Source: Gammaproteobacteria bacterium
GTDB lineage: Bacteria; Pseudomonadota; Gammaproteobacteria; Steroidobacterales; JABDKV01
Assembly: GCA_029862165.1 (NCBI GenBank)
Contig: JAOTXU010000003.1
Span: 124,001-188,000, forward strand
Direction of reading: 5' to 3'
Length of the DNA: 64,000 bases
Made by a program: the position numbers and the translations under genes. The notes beneath the pieces are model-generated. The model ran no database searches. It was not told the origin of the DNA and saw nothing but the letters and a program-made list of their open reading frames with translations. Within the stretch, counting starts at the first letter, position 1. The number at the start of each line of letters is the position of its first letter. Shown here piece after piece: positions 54,359 to 61,637 of the stretch.

Positions 54359-55666
54359 TTATTTTGGCACTTTTGCCCGCGTCAGCTTTGCGAGTCGCTG
54401 TTCCAGGGTTTCCAGGCAGAGATTGCCGGCGGCACCGGGCGAGACTTTTTTGGTCAGGCTCTCCTCTGGTGTGCTCTCGGTCGTGTCGACGAGATCAGTT
54501 TTTGCTGCCCGATAGGCCTGGCGGAACGGCATGCCCTGCCGGGCATTTTCGATCGCCTGATCGGTTGCATACATGGCAGGCTCGATTGCACCTCGCAGTT
54601 TTTCCTCGTTGAAGCTTGTGCTCAGAATCAACGCCGGCATACAGGACATGGCCTCCAGTCCCCGCGCGAAAGCACGCAGTAACGGTCCCTTCGTAGTTTG
54701 CAGGTCACGGTGATAGCCGCTGGGTAGTGACAACACTGCATGCATCTCAGTGATGGCGCCCTGAACCACGCCATGCGTGGCACGCAATAACTCGATCAGA
54801 TCGGGATTACGTTTGTTGGGCATGATCGATGAACCGGTCGTGAGCTGTTCGGGCAGTTTCACAAAGCCGAACTCGCTGCTGGTAAATAAACTCAAATCCC
54901 AGGCGTAACGCCGGACATCCAGCAATGCCTGACCCAGGCTGTTGAGCGCCTGTAACTCAAATTTGCCTCGGCTGTTTTGCGTGTAAACGGGGTTGAGTTG
55001 CAGGCGATCGAACGCAAGGGCGCTGGTAGTGTAATCGCGATCCAGTAGCAGATTCACGCCGTAACCGGCAGCGGTGCCGAGCGGGTTGGCGTTAATCCAG
55101 TTGTGTGATGCTTCGGCCAATACTGCATTGTCGATAAACGCCTCTGCAAAACCGGCAAACCAGGTACCGACCGACGACACGACGGCGCGTTGCATATGCG
55201 TGTAGCCAGGCATCGGGGTGTGTGCGTAGTCACGGGCTTGTGCCAGACAGGCTTCTGCTGTGACGCGACAGTGCCCGACCAGCTCCTCTAACGCATCACG
55301 CATGAACAACCGTGTGGCCACCAGCACCTGGTCGTTGCGGCTGCGGCCGGTGTGTACTTTCTCTCCGACTTCGCCCAAGCGTTCGACCAGCCACGCCTCG
55401 ATCGCTGAATGACCGTCCTCATAACGTTCGTCCAGTACGAATTTTCCGTCGGCGACTTGCCGCGCCAATTCATCGAGCCCCGTGCATAGATCCGATTGTT
55501 CGGCTGGCGACAGCAAACCGATCCTGGCCAGCCCTTCGACATGTGCGACGGTTGCCTGAATATCGTAGTGCAATAGCTGGCGATCGAGGATCACGTCATC
55601 CGCAGCCAGAAACCGCATGACGCGTTCGTCAACGTCCGTTGTGTTATTGCCCCACAGATAATTCAT
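54359..55666 (-). CDS. argH: Argininosuccinate lyase
   Basis: VHTGRSRNDQVLVATRLF, GSSIMPNKRNPDLIELLRA. Confidence 0.96.
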   Translation of the reverse strand: MNYLWGNNTTDVDERVMRFLAADDVILDRQLLHYDIQATVAHVEGLARIGLLSPAEQSDLCTGLDELARQVADGKFVLDERYEDGHSAIEAWLVERLGEVGEKVHTGRSRNDQVLVATRLFMRDALEELVGHCRVTAEACLAQARDYAHTPMPGYTHMQRAVVSSVGTWFAGFAEAFIDNAVLAEASHNWINANPLGTAAGYGVNLLLDRDYTTSALAFDRLQLNPVYTQNSRGKFELQALNSLGQALLDVRRYAWDLSLFTSSEFGFVKLPEQLTTGSSIMPNKRNPDLIELLRATHGVVQGAITEMHAVLSLPSGYHRDLQTTKGPLLRAFARGLEAMSCMPALILSTSFNEEKLRGAIEPAMYATDQAIENARQGMPFRQAYRAAKTDLVDTTESTPEESLTKKVSPGAAGNLCLETLEQRLAKLTRAKVPK

Positions 55667-56609
55667 CGTCCAGGCCCTCCAGCTCGGCATGCTCACATGC
55701 CAGGTTGATATTTTGGATTGCCTGCGTGGCTGCGCCCTTGAGCAGGTTGTCGAGTGTAGAAAACACGACCAGACGACGTCCGTTGGCAGACAGTTGCCAG
55801 CCTCCGACCGTCGCGTGATGCCGGCCGACGCTGTCCGCTACCAGCGGCACTTCATCAGTCACGTGTACAAGGGGTTCACTGGCGTAAACCCGCTCATAGC
55901 ACATGCGCACATCACCATGGGTCATCGATTTGTCGAGTGTCATGGTTACGGTCATCGATATGCCGCGAAAAAATTCCGCGACATGTGGGAAAAAGCGCAC
56001 CTCGGTACCGAGGCGATGACTCACTTCCTGCTCGTGCAGATGACCGATGGGCTGATAAGGCAGCAGGTTGCCGGCTAACAGGGTTGCATCATTTTTCTTC
56101 GATGGTTTCGTGCCCGCGCCGCTGTAACCCGAGACGCCAAAACAATGTGGTGGCTCACTGACAAAGTTCCGTAACGGAGCGATTGCAAGCTGCATGGCAG
56201 TGGCATAACAACCGGGGTTGCTGATACACAGGCGGCCTTCGCGTTCATTTCGCGACAGTTCCGGCAGGCCATAGTGCCACTGGTTGTCGAAACGGTGATC
56301 GCCACTGAGATCGACGATGATCGTATTCGTTTTTTTTAGTTTGGCCGCGTAATTATCAGACAGGCCGTTGGGCAGGGCCAGCACGCAGATATCGACGTCG
56401 CGTTTAGCAACAGCCTCAGCGTCAAGCGTTTCAAAGCGCAAATCTGGATCGGCGTTCTTGACGTGTTTGACCAAGCGTTGCCCAACCAGCTCACGCGAGC
56501 TCGCATAGCCGAGTTGGAGGCCGGGATGGTCGCCAATGAGGCGCATGAGTTCCAGGCCAACGTAGCCCCGCGCGCCTACCAAACCCAGTTTTATCGGTGA
56601 TGCAGTCAT
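55644..56609 (-). CDS. argC: N-acetyl-gamma-glutamyl-phosphate reductase
   Basis: GLVGARGYVGLELMRL, ISNPGCYATAMQLAIAPL, GVSGYSGAGTKPS. Confidence 0.95.
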   Translation of the reverse strand: MTASPIKLGLVGARGYVGLELMRLIGDHPGLQLGYASSRELVGQRLVKHVKNADPDLRFETLDAEAVAKRDVDICVLALPNGLSDNYAAKLKKTNTIIVDLSGDHRFDNQWHYGLPELSRNEREGRLCISNPGCYATAMQLAIAPLRNFVSEPPHCFGVSGYSGAGTKPSKKNDATLLAGNLLPYQPIGHLHEQEVSHRLGTEVRFFPHVAEFFRGISMTVTMTLDKSMTHGDVRMCYERVYASEPLVHVTDEVPLVADSVGRHHATVGGWQLSANGRRLVVFSTLDNLLKGAATQAIQNINLACEHAELEGLDDELSVGQ

Positions 56610-56619
56610 AAATATGTAC

Positions 56620-57936
56620 TCAGGTCAGTGTTTCCCTTGCCGACATGGCACGATCCACGCAATTGCGAATCGTCTTCATGTCATCGATTCCGTACCAGAA
56701 GACGTTCCAGGCGTCGCCTTTGATGCAGCCGTCGCAATGCTGAAAATAAAAGCGATTGATTGGATTGTCCGGACGCGCGCGCCAATACAACGACGGGTGT
56801 GCCTTGCGTAGCCGTGCCCACAATGCGGAACCGAGACCTTCGCCCTGCGCCTGTTCGGTTACTGCAAATTTGTCCAGTCGTGCAGCCAGCCCGCCGTTCA
56901 CTACGATGGCAGCTGCATGATAGGTGTCGCTTACATAGGCTGCAGCAAGCTCGGTCTTTCCAGTGTAGTCCTCAGCCAGAGACCGGCCGAAGCTAGACGC
57001 AACCAGCTTACGCAAGCGTTGCATATCGACACTGTCCCAATCGTCATAAACGACAATGCGTTCACCAACACGCACGAAAGTCCCAGACCCACGATGTGTA
57101 AAGAGTTCTTTGGCCAGCAACCCCGGCCGGGTGATCGAAACGGACGACGTGTGGGGGATATCGCGCAGCAGTGAGTTGATCTGCTCCAGCTTCAGCCGCA
57201 TGCCAGAGTGCAGCCAGTCCTGTTGCATCAATTTTTCGTAATCGGTGGCCAGATTGATTGAGGGAATGACCTTGCCGTCGGCATCTATGATGCCACCGGT
57301 GCCGGTAAGGAATATGATTTTCAGCGGTTGTAGTTCGTTGACGAGCGCTTGCGTGGCCACATCGGCATTGACGTTGACGATTTGCCCATCGACAGTCTCG
57401 CCCAGCGGAGACAACACCGGCACGATGTGACTCTCGAGCGAATGGCGCACGATATCCGGGTGCACATTGCTGACTTTTCCGACCATGCCGTATTTGCCGC
57501 TGTCGAGCAGGCGCGTCTCGAATACGCCGTTGGTAATCGAAACCGCCTGGGTGCCGGCCTCACGCAGCGCTTTTACGAGCGTAAGATTTTCCCGCATAAA
57601 TACCTGTCGCGCAGTCTGTAGGACAGCAGGAGAGGTAACCCGGAGCCCGTCGCGAATTTGTGTATCAATACCGCGCTCGGCCAATGCCGCATTGAGTTGT
57701 GGTCCGGCGCCATGCACCACGATGGGCGTCAGTCCGACTTGCTGCAGAAAAACCAAAGAAGAGGTCAGTTCTCTGAGATCGGATTTCAGCGTCGCCCCGC
57801 CAATCTTGATAACAGCAAACTGATCAGCGTCGAGATCGGAGTAACGTTGCAGATACTGCTGAATTTCCTTCTCGTTGCCCAGGTTGCCCAGCAACCGGCG
57901 AATTACGGTACGTAGTTGTTTGTTTGGTGAATTCAT
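56620..57936 (-). CDS. Bifunctional N-acetylglutamate kinase/synthase (NAGK-GNAT fusion)
   Basis: KIGGATLKSDLRELTSSLVFLQQVGLTPIVVHGAGPQLN kinase; C-terminal NAT domain EQAQGEGLGSALWARLRKAHPSLYWRARPDNPINRFYF. Confidence 0.92.
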   Translation of the reverse strand: MNSPNKQLRTVIRRLLGNLGNEKEIQQYLQRYSDLDADQFAVIKIGGATLKSDLRELTSSLVFLQQVGLTPIVVHGAGPQLNAALAERGIDTQIRDGLRVTSPAVLQTARQVFMRENLTLVKALREAGTQAVSITNGVFETRLLDSGKYGMVGKVSNVHPDIVRHSLESHIVPVLSPLGETVDGQIVNVNADVATQALVNELQPLKIIFLTGTGGIIDADGKVIPSINLATDYEKLMQQDWLHSGMRLKLEQINSLLRDIPHTSSVSITRPGLLAKELFTHRGSGTFVRVGERIVVYDDWDSVDMQRLRKLVASSFGRSLAEDYTGKTELAAAYVSDTYHAAAIVVNGGLAARLDKFAVTEQAQGEGLGSALWARLRKAHPSLYWRARPDNPINRFYFQHCDGCIKGDAWNVFWYGIDDMKTIRNCVDRAMSARETLT

Positions 57937-59009
57937 TGGATGAGTCTTGTGTAGGTTTCGGTCACCTGCGCCAACTGTGCTAGCGCAACCCATTCGTCGG
58001 CGTTGTGAGCCTGGGCGATATCACCGGGGCCGTACACGATTGCGGTCAGGCCTGCGGCAGAAAACAACGCGGCCTCGGTCCAGAAGTCGACCGCATCAGC
58101 AAGTGGCAATCCCAGTGACTCCGCCAACTGTTTGCCTTGGTCTAATTGACTGTCTCTTGCCGGCAGCGATGGCGCCAGAAAGACCGGTTCGAAGCTGGCT
58201 ACTTCATGGGGTTCGGCGAGGTTGCGGAAATCGGTCAGTAGTTTTGATCCGTCTTGCCCCGGCAGCGTGCGCACGCCAAATTTTACGAGAGTATCCGCTG
58301 CGATCATGTTGGGTTTGATACCCCCTTCGATGCGCCCAATATTGAAACGGATGCCCTGCAGGTTTTCGTACGACTTACTTTTCTGTTCGCCGGCGAAATC
58401 GAGTGCGCGCACTGCCCAGCGTGTTGCACGGTGTATGGCGCTGTCATCGGATGCACGTTCTGCGCTGGCATGCCCGGCTACGCCATCAAACGTCATCTGT
58501 GCGGTGGCGATGCCACGGTGCGCCAGCACCGCGCACGCGCCAGACGGTTCCGCCACGATCACATGGTCGTAGTCATGATTGCCGGCGAGAAACTGTTTGA
58601 TGCAACGACTGCTGCCCGCTTCTTCGTCAGAACTGAATAACAGTGCGAGATCGCCCTGGCTGCACGCCGCCGCCGTCAACATGCAGGCCGCCGCGCCTTT
58701 GATATCGCAGGCGCCCAGACCAGTGGCGTGCTCGCTATCGACCTGTAGTGTGAAAGGGTCGGTGTTCCAGGCCGGCGAGACCGGCACCGTGTCGATATGA
58801 AAATTGAATAGCGTTTTCGGCCGACCCCGTTTGGCCAGCAAGTTGACGCTACCGTCTCCGAGGTCGTCCAGTGTTAATTCAAAACCAGTCAGGTGCTCGG
58901 ACAGATAGGCAAAGATGCCCGTGCGGTCTATTGCCCTGGGCGGGTTTTGCGTATCAAAAGCCACCAGCGCCGCCAGATGATCGAGCGTTTGTTTCAGCGA
59001 CGTGTTCAT
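57933..59009 (-). CDS. M20 peptidase: N-acetylcitrulline deacetylase (ArgE'-like)
   Basis: [75 protein letters not shown]. Confidence 0.88.
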
Positions 59010-60265
59010 CTGCGATCGCGGCTGGAAGCCGCTCCTACGGAATCGTCGCCGTCTCGACGGCTCGCCGCAAGATCTTTATTGACTTTTGCCCAAACGGCAG
59101 AGCTCTGCCCAAACAATTTGATAAATCCCTGTGCCTCCGCCGATGTCCAGTCGGCGGACTGGGCATACGTAGCACTGTCGTTGACCAGCAGATGGTCGGA
59201 TTCGATCGCTACCGCATCAACGGTGCCGCCGTGTGTTAGCAGTGTGACCGTGCCATTCAAAGCGGACTGTGCGGAGGCGAGATACGCCTCGAGATCAGTC
59301 TTTAGCGGCTCATAGAAAAAACCCTGGTAAACCAGTTCTGCCCATTGCCTGGCAGCAACCGGCTTGAAGCGGTTCTGGTGACGGGTGCAGGTAGCCTCCT
59401 CCAGCGCCCGATGTGCCACGTCCAGGGCCGTCAATCCAGGTGCTTCGTAGACTATGCGACCCTTCAGGCCGACATTCGTGTCGCCGGTGTAGATGCCACG
59501 ACCTACACCATAGGCGCCAAAACGCCGGTTGAGTTCAGCAAGCATGTCGGGGCCTGGACGGGACTCCCCATCAAGAGCAACAGGGATTCCCGCCTCGAAA
59601 GTGATCGCGATTTGCAACGGCTGGTCAGGCCATTCCCCGCGTGGCCGGGTCAGTTGCCGGGTATCGGGGCCTGGTGTTTCCCAGCGGTCAATCTCCGCAC
59701 CGGAAATCGTAACACCGAGCAGGTTTTCGTTAATGGTATAGGTGCTGGTCTTGTCGCGTACGGCGTAGCCACGTTCCTGTAAGTACGATTTTTCGAACTC
59801 CCGTACCTGACGATCACGTTGTTGTATCTCACGGATCGGAGCGACGATCTGATAGTTACCCAGCGCCTGGGTGGTCAGGTCAAAACGCACCTGATCGTTG
59901 CCCATGCCGGTACAACCGTGTGCGAAGTGACGCGTTCCGAGTTCATCGCACAGTTCCAGCGCCTTACGTACGATGACATAGCGATCTGAACACAGTAACG
60001 GATACTGCGATTGGTAAAATTCACCGGCGCGCACAAGTGGTACGACAACTTCCTGCCAGATGTCCTGCGCGGCATCAACGGCTACATGCTTTACAGCACC
60101 GAGCTCCACGGCCCGTTGAGCGATGTAGTCCCGTTCATTTGCCTCCACGCCGCCGGTATCGACAAACAGCGTTGTTACCGCATAGCCTTGTTCTGTGAGC
60201 CACGGCACACAGAAGCTGGTGTCCAGCCCGCCGGAAAATGCCAACACGATTGTTTTGTCTGTCAT
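59006..60265 (-). CDS. argG: Argininosuccinate synthase
   Basis: [33 protein letters not shown], GGAxID-type region. Confidence 0.95.
59014..59038. repeat. REP-like palindromic element inside the argG 3' end
   Basis: GATCGCGGCTGGAAGCCGCTCCTAC (GCGGCT-GGA-AGCCGC); resembles the GTAGGAGCGGCTTC-AGCCGCG REP consensus of pseudomonad/xanthomonad genomes. Confidence 0.7.
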
Positions 60266-61269
60266 TCGGATAGTCCTCCGGCCAGCGTGGTCATCAAAGC
60301 CTTTTGCACGTGCAGGCGATTCTCGGCCTCGTCAACTGCAATGCAGTAATCGGCATCCATTACCTCGTCGGTCGCTTTGATATTCCGACGCAGCGGCAGG
60401 CAATGGCTGAACAAGGCGTTATTGGTCCTTAGCATTTTGTGCTCGTCGACGATGAAATGCCGGTTCGCATCGCGCAGGGGTTTTTCCTCTTCCCAGTTGC
60501 CGAAATAGGGCAGGGCACCCCAACTCTTTGCGTAAACCACATCCGCATCCGCATAAGCACTATCGATGTCGTGTGTCACTGTCACCGAAGTGCCGCTGGC
60601 ATGGGCGGCGGTATGTGCCGCATCCATGTACCGTGGGTCGAGTAAGTATTCTTCGCTGGGACAAAGCAGGGTGACATTCATTCCGAACTTGCTGGCGATC
60701 AACAGCGCTGAGTTGGCCACCGCGGTATTGAGCGGTTTCGGATGATAGGTCCAGGTCAACAGAAATTTCTTGCCATCACACATGCCGAGGTGTTCTTGCA
60801 GCGTATGCATGAGTGCAAGCTCCTGGCAGGGATGCACAATAGTTTCCATGTTGATGACCGGTACCGTTGCATGCTCAGCAAATGCTTGCAGCACCCGATC
60901 CTGCCGGTCGATTTGCCAATCCTGGAATTTGGGAAAAGCTCGCACAGCAATCAGATCACAGTAACGCGACAAAACACGAGCAGCCTCGACCACGTGTTCC
61001 TCGGCGGTCCCGTCCATCACACCACCCGGTTCAAATGCCAGTGGCCATGCATCGCGACCGGGTGCAAGCACTACTGCATGTGCGCCAAGCTGAAATGCGC
61101 CGATTTCAAATGAGGTGCGCGTGCGCATGGAAGGATTGAAAAACAACAATGCGACAGACTTGCCGGCCAGCGTGGCGCCGTGCTCACCCTGTTTTAGCTG
61201 CGCTGCCAGATCGAGCAGGGCTTGAAGCTCTGTCCGTGACCAGGTTTCTGTCGTCAAAAAATGCCGCAT
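60262..61269 (-). CDS. argF': N-acetylornithine carbamoyltransferase (ArgF'/AOTCase)
   Basis: [86 protein letters not shown]; as remembered, close to the Xanthomonas AOTCase. Confidence 0.92.
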
Positions 61270-61304: not shown

Positions 61305-61331
61305 AAAAAAAAACCCAGCCATGTGGCTGGG
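61305..61331 (-). terminator. Attenuator terminator upstream of argF'
   Basis: Minus strand CCCAGCC-ACAT-GGCTGGG-T9. Confidence 0.93.
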
Positions 61332-61367
61332 CTTATATGATTCTTGGTTGACGCGTACTACCCAGCC
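61325..61367 (-). promoter_or_regulatory. Candidate antiterminator for arg operon
   Basis: Minus strand GGCTGGG at 61367-61361 (last codons of the leader) is complementary to the terminator 5' arm CCCAGCC (61331-61325). Confidence 0.75.
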
Positions 61368-61429
61368 GCAGCGTTAGCTCCTGTACGGCGACGTCGCGAA
61401 ATGGAAACGGTAATGTGTGCGTTCAACAT
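61358..61429 (-). CDS. Arginine-rich leader peptide (23 aa), not in the ORF track
   Basis: MLNAHITVSISRRRRTGANAAAG*; codons CGA CGT CGC CGT; stop abuts antiterminator arm; terminator and argF' follow; SD is weak and an in-frame GTG at 61501 is an alternative start. Confidence 0.75.
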   Translation of the reverse strand: MLNAHITVSISRRRRTGANAAAG

Positions 61430-61637
61430 AGCCGTAGTGATAACACAGGTACGGGCCGGATCGCAAGGAATGGCCCGGACAAGTTCGCTCCGGGCAGTCA
61501 CTGGCCTCTTTGTCGGTCTGAAGGCTTGCTTTGCGTTGGCCTGATCCGATATGTTCAGGTCTCATATCAGCGCACTCGAACAGTCCGCGATACATGATTA
61601 CAACACCGTGATGAGGGCATCACGGGAGGGGGAGCCT

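Follow-up and report, generated by a model that had tools for sequence, protein, structure and literature searches.

The acetylated-arginine operon argF'-argG-argE-argAB-argC-argH analyzed here is very probably controlled by a ribosome-mediated transcription attenuator, which senses the charging of arginyl-tRNA. This reading is based on sequence comparison without expression data. At that level the anatomy of the element, its conservation, the co-variation of its pairing arms, its geometry, the mutual exclusion with ArgR and the placement of a promoter-like motif are established. As judged from the compared genomes, the same layout recurs in dozens of related genera without the usual arginine repressor.

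The operon is located on the minus strand of the window, i.e., the whole stretch of 64,000 nucleotides of DNA that was analyzed. The first-pass annotation had assumed an acetylated-arginine operon downstream of the leader, and the NCBIfam models give exactly such a gene order:

60262 to 61269, minus strand: argF', N-acetylornithine carbamoyltransferase, first gene of the operon (NCBIfam NF003384, 565 bits, cut-off 288)
59006 to 60265, minus strand: argG, argininosuccinate synthase (NF003385)
57933 to 59009, minus strand: argE-type deacetylase (NF006439)
56620 to 57993, minus strand: acetylglutamate kinase of the fused argB-argA (synthase-kinase) kind (NF003387)
55644 to 56609, minus strand: argC (TIGR01850)
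54359 to 55696, minus strand: argH (TIGR00838)

The divergent neighbour upstream of the leader is gltB, encoding glutamate synthase. About 120 nt (window positions 61430 to 61550) separate the leader promoter and the gltB start, and one intergenic region is common to arginine and glutamate synthesis genes. Elsewhere in the genome of the window, a second transcarbamylase-like match with 34% identity to argF' was identified (G000:C6:5940-6905). Upstream of carA of this genome no Arg leader of this kind was found, which is a point against the attenuator reading.

The leader ORF consists of 23 codons and contains four consecutive Arg codons. Its start at ATG 61429 and the codons CGA CGT CGC CGT had been given by the first-pass annotation with coordinates that are exact to the base. 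Its further statements, that the GGCTGGG at the end of the ORF equals the terminator 3' arm and that argF' begins shortly past the U-tract of a terminator at 61331-61305, were confirmed as well; the two copies of GGCTGGG are at 61367-61361 and 61320-61314. The elements of the leader region are:

61461 to 61466, minus strand: -35-like TTGCGA of the leader promoter, recurring at the same distance from the leader ATG in relatives
61437 to 61442, minus strand: -10-like TATCAC with TG at 61445-61444, separated from the leader ATG by 7 nt; all four closest loci have TGTG-TAT unchanged
61358 to 61429, minus strand: leader ORF from ATG 61429 to TAG 61358, peptide MLNAHITVSISRRRRTGANAAAG followed by the stop, probably leaderless, conserved in relatives
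61385 to 61396, minus strand: regulatory codons CGA CGT CGC CGT (four Arg), read from the sequence; Arg clusters are conserved
61361 to 61367, minus strand: leader arm GGCTGGG (antiterminator strand) in the last codons of the ORF, 7/7 complementary to the terminator 5' arm
61325 to 61331, minus strand: terminator 5' arm CCCAGCC, common to terminator and antiterminator, from pairing and folding
61314 to 61320, minus strand: terminator 3' arm GGCTGGG, from pairing
61305 to 61313, minus strand: U-tract T9, read from the sequence

The leader ORF ends with ...GCGGCTGGGTAG and is followed after 26 nt by the terminator CCCAGCC-ACAT-GGCTGGG-T9 (61331-61305, minus strand), in which ACAT is the loop between the two arms. 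Between the U-tract and the argF' start at 61269 there are 35 nt. This terminator is the sole terminator-like site in the neighbourhood, and its sequence occurs only once in the 3.34 Mb genome when searched with up to 2 mismatches. None of the Pfam or NCBIfam models matched the leader peptides. Weak Rfam matches at the locus (isrJ, MicC, anti-hemB and others) were discarded, as they are below the gathering scores and reflect the terminator. Folding of a longer stretch suggested pairing of a CCGGCCC upstream of the ATG with GGCTGGG, which was rejected because this segment is located upstream of the predicted transcription start.

In the proposed mechanism, the transcript would begin with the leader AUG itself or with a few bases in front of it, and the leader would be translated as an ORF that is leaderless or nearly so. 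A shortage of charged tRNA-Arg would make the ribosome stall at CGA-CGU-CGC-CGU. The downstream GGCUGGG would then stay exposed and could pair with the emerging CCCAGCC, forming the antiterminator, and the polymerase would enter argF'. With ample arginine, the ribosome would reach the stop codon and cover GGCUGGG, so that CCCAGCC would pair with the downstream GGCUGGG, the U9 terminator would form and the operon would be switched off. Stalling, kinetic antitermination and the response to arginine are inferred. The first-pass annotation had invoked the logic of his/ilv/leu attenuation for this locus. It is strongly supported by the comparison of Arg leaders, arm co-change and geometry, with arginine-dependent readthrough as the inferred part.

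For the comparison, the 400 nt upstream of argF' were collected from three sources: relatives within the window's order; named genome contigs, largely of Rhodanobacteraceae but also of Aliikangiella, Tahibacter, Dokdonella, Woeseiaceae and others; and sampled genomes of the order comprising Rhodanobacteraceae and Xanthomonadaceae, here called Xanthomonadales. The family names are our own reading. All loci were picked by similarity of argF' and not by the leader, and a few genomes appear in duplicate, once from each of two collections. A terminator-like hairpin was found in 177 of 192 upstream regions. It is preceded by a short ORF with at least three Arg in five codons in 172 of the 177 (97%), compared to 12.3% of dinucleotide shuffles. 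ORFs were counted if they had at most 50 codons, ended 10-60 nt before the hairpin and reached this Arg content in some five-codon stretch. The first-pass annotation had suggested to look for Arg-rich leaders and covarying stems in relatives, and the leaders are indeed conserved. Related loci are not independent of each other; nonetheless, the pattern extends over many families, with peptides that differ considerably. RRRR is typical for the window's clade, SARMAAGMTSRARRP for Rhodanobacteraceae and Xanthomonadaceae, VVVRRRRP for family f178 and RRRRRPYWAGC for Aliikangiella. Within a large group of Gammaproteobacteria, to which Xanthomonas and its relatives belong, most of the sampled genomes carry the element. 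Some loci of family f179 (L124, L141, L143, L190, L195, L198-L200) do not fit the attenuator reading: they have neither an Arg leader nor a recognized terminator upstream of argF', and no ArgR match was found in their genomes.

GC-rich DNA could by its composition alone yield Arg codons and CCCGGC hairpins, and the terminator would then merely insulate argF'. That 12% of the shuffles also reach at least three Arg in five codons speaks for such a chance origin, but the 97% of the natural loci are far above this value, and the AT-rich loci L032, L102, L183 and L186 also carry Arg-rich leaders before terminators. Furthermore, gltB in the window is transcribed away from argF', which leaves no readthrough against which argF' would have to be insulated. 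We consider this explanation practically ruled out.

Within the window's clade, the only parts of the sequence that do not drift are the -10-like TGTGNTAT, the ATG, CGNCGNCGTA, GGAG, CGGCTGGGT and the terminator. The codon CGA accounts for 24-27% of the codons in the leader Arg clusters, compared to 6% and 2% in the argF' genes, and may slow down the ribosome there. CGU, CGC and CGA are decoded by one tRNA-Arg, and the leader therefore probably gauges the charging of this tRNA.

The leader arm is identical (GGCTGGG) in all four closest loci. Over the whole sample, the end of the ORF mostly contains such a copy of the terminator 3' arm, but it pairs fully (6/6) with the terminator 5' arm in only 139 of the 172 loci. 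As leader arms were tabulated by best pairing, such counts are inflated, and changes affecting all three arms are the better evidence. Most Rhodanobacteraceae have the arms CCCGGC/GCCGGG/GCCGGG. In L137 of the same family they are CCCAGC/GCTGGG/GCTGGG, unlike in the rest of f181. The three arms also change together within family f15 (L014 compared to L015 and L016), and they read CCCGAC/GTCGGG/GTCGGG in L032 and CCTGGT/GCCAGG/GCCAGG in L183. With these cases the covarying stems were found, too. A cross-tabulation of one arm position (p=5e-19) was not accepted as independent evidence, because its two states split along one family boundary; single changes inside families were relied on in its place.

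The position of the leader arm fits the dimensions of a ribosome. Among 127 loci with 6/6 pairing, its start follows the first clustered Arg codon at a distance of 25-36 nt (5th to 95th percentile), and in 100 of them it lies within the last two codons. With an assumed footprint size, it would be covered by a ribosome at the stop codon in 124 of the 127 (98%) and exposed during a stall at the Arg codons in 96-100%. The RNA of the window was also folded after removal of the ribosome-covered part. With the ribosome stalled at any one of the four Arg codons, the RNA was predicted to adopt structures of -17 to -20 kcal/mol that include the antiterminator, before the 3' arm is made; with the ribosome at the stop codon, the terminator is the only one of the two that can form. 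The predicted equilibrium stability of the terminator exceeds that of the antiterminator by about 5 kcal/mol, even with a stalled ribosome, and consequently the switch would have to be kinetic. A kinetic decision is also generally held for the classical attenuators. The classical 1:2 upstream pause hairpin, which in such attenuators permits termination in the absence of translation, shows only a marginal excess (pairing 0.76, compared to 0.69 in shuffles). Apart from this hairpin, all features of an attenuator that are testable on DNA sequence are met.

Bacterial arg operons are textbook examples of repression by ArgR/AhrC. ArgR (PF01316) likewise provides arginine-responsive control of arginine genes, but no match to it was found in the genome of the window. 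In the window's order, 19 genomes carry argF' without ArgR, 81 carry ArgR, none carries both and 17 carry neither (p=2.5e-12, kinship ignored). The 81 ArgR genomes contain ornithine-type argF matches. The Xanthomonadales sample comprises 130 genomes with argF', 5 with ArgR and none with both, i.e., the two were not found together in any of the 267 genomes of the two orders. The first few ArgR-bearing relatives served as controls; by eye, coding sequence precedes argF there and no leader is present. The test was based on PF01316 only, and an unrelated arginine regulator, e.g., the AraC-family ArgR of Pseudomonas, is not excluded. The attenuator appears to stand in for ArgR in these lineages.

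The promoter-like elements in the window are spaced as TTGCGA, 18 nt, TATCAC, 7 nt, ATG. A TTG(A/C/T) -35 with a matching -10 that ends 6-10 nt before the leader ATG was detected in 46 of the 72 loci outside the Rhodanobacteraceae, while the same motif at shifted positions, used as control, reached 1-13%. With the promoter ending 7 nt before the AUG, the expected 5' UTR has zero to few nucleotides, which would also explain that the window leader has no clear Shine-Dalgarno sequence. From this spacing, the window leader is probably leaderless or nearly so, as are about two thirds of the loci outside the Rhodanobacteraceae. In the Rhodanobacteraceae, by eye, a short 5' UTR appears to precede the leader start and to contain a weak Shine-Dalgarno sequence of the GGA type. 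According to the first-pass annotation, a weak Shine-Dalgarno sequence would speak against translation of the leader. A clear one is indeed missing, but the objection is void if the leader is leaderless. Two observations argue against its second objection, a promoter located downstream of the leader, namely the promoter-like motif conserved 6-10 nt before the AUG and the RACE-derived 5' end published for the Xanthomonas homologue, placed via the Rfam model.

This homologue is Xoo5 (RF02242), which was found above the gathering threshold upstream of argF' at five Xanthomonadaceae loci (L111, L112, L144, L145, L155). The model aligns at the leader, in four of the five loci over its full length, and its first bases cuAUG are the leader start. 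It stops short of the terminator, and it has no match in the window or its genome. Xoo5 was cloned as an RNA of 124 nt with a 5' end determined by RACE, and Liang et al. (2011; PMC3039613) described it as an orphan sRNA of Xanthomonas. In Northern blots it appeared as bands of about 130 and 100 nt which varied with the growth phase, and neither argF nor a leader peptide is mentioned anywhere in the text of that paper (PMC3039613). From the matching length of 124 nt we infer that the RACE-mapped 5' end is the first base of RF02242, 2 nt before the leader AUG. The cloned 3' end falls short of the predicted terminator hairpin by about 10 nt, and termination at the U-tract would yield an RNA of about 155-160 nt, longer than either Northern band. 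Trimming of the 3' end or truncation during cloning would explain this mismatch, which is unresolved.

As published, Xoo5 would be an independent trans-acting sRNA, with the terminator as its own end and the argF' promoter downstream. Its detection by cloning, Northern blot and 5' RACE is compatible with this, as is the deviation of the cloned 3' end from the predicted terminator. However, neither conservation of an Arg ORF nor a terminator-arm copy placed according to ribosome geometry is expected for such an RNA, and the element stays beside argF' across many families. In addition, seven of the eight confirmed sRNAs could be deleted without an obvious phenotype, and only Xoo1, Xoo3 and Xoo4 were treated in functional sections (PMC3039613). 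A trans-acting sRNA is therefore highly improbable here, and the annotation of Xoo5 probably needs to be changed to a cis-regulatory leader.

Alternatively, the same RNA switch could be set by an arrest peptide, in which the nascent chain itself senses arginine or a related metabolite and stalls the ribosome. SpeFL, an ornithine arrest peptide, is a precedent for this. Support comes from the MTSRARR clade (Xanthomonadaceae, Rhodanobacteraceae and neighbours), of which 73 distinct sequences were compared. Their three Arg positions are invariant with variable Arg codons. The non-Arg residues A(-6), A(-3), M, T, S and A are present in 73/73 and G(-1) in 72/73, although several of these codons vary synonymously. 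These sequences were selected by the MTSRARR motif itself, and the synonymous variation is the informative part. Conservation of such leaders (e.g., L033 and L155) goes beyond the needs of a pure codon sensor. In contrast, conservation in the window's clade is limited to the Arg cluster, a Gly-rich stretch and the end (SRRRRTG, LRRRNGG, PRRRTGG, VRRRIGG), and the remaining clades keep RRRR alone; Arg stretches recur across families, but a fixed motif does not. Moreover, a stall at abundant arginine would lead to induction by arginine, which is the wrong sign for a biosynthetic operon. As a general explanation an arrest peptide is hardly likely. For the MTSRARR clade there is a slim but real chance that an arginine-related arrest peptide acts besides or instead of the codon-starvation sensor; it would be made from a leaderless mRNA in part of the clade, set an intrinsic terminator and have replaced ArgR.

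The attenuator that reads arginyl-tRNA charging would explain how arginine genes are regulated in bacteria which use the N-acetylornithine route and lack ArgR. Arginine is probably sensed by the speed of the ribosome through the leader mini-gene, and the orphan Rfam family Xoo5 would gain a function. It also suggests that attenuators can run on leaderless leader ORFs, for which the timing of initiation relative to RNA polymerase should differ from that of leaders with a Shine-Dalgarno sequence. To our knowledge, no arginine biosynthesis operon has been reported to be controlled by leader-peptide attenuation, and no description of such an attenuator was found in the open-access literature. The first-pass annotation was not aware of any, which is not contradicted there, but the RNA itself is already known as Xoo5 and leaders with Arg codons are known from elsewhere. 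The novelty of an arginine attenuator is likely but not certain.

Several known systems share single features with the argF' leader. Xoo5 has the same leader start (cuAUG) in Xanthomonadaceae, but differs as a published orphan sRNA whose model lacks the terminator. The arginine T-boxes of Firmicutes respond to tRNA-Arg, but no T-box match was found with Rfam at the window locus (E-values up to 5). For carA of P. aeruginosa, a gene of the arginine/pyrimidine pathway, a leader peptide with possible attenuation was reported (Kwon, 1994, cited in PMC4997734); it is described as concerning pyrimidine control, with arginine control acting at the transcriptional level (PMC4997734). In the Salmonella speF leader, consecutive Arg codons of ORF34 sense arginine through ribosome pausing (PMC6386406). 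That leader, however, controls polyamine synthesis by Rho termination, sequestration of the ribosome binding site and decay by RNase G, without an intrinsic terminator before an arginine operon. The closest likeness is to the his, trp, thr, ilv, leu and phe leaders of enteric bacteria, with which the argF' leader has tandem codons for the product, an intrinsic terminator, an overlapping antiterminator and the decision by ribosome position in common. In contrast to these classical attenuators, the argF' leader is specific for arginine and probably has a leaderless ORF without Shine-Dalgarno sequence, two alternative hairpins would suffice without a clearly selected pause hairpin, and it occurs where ArgR is absent.
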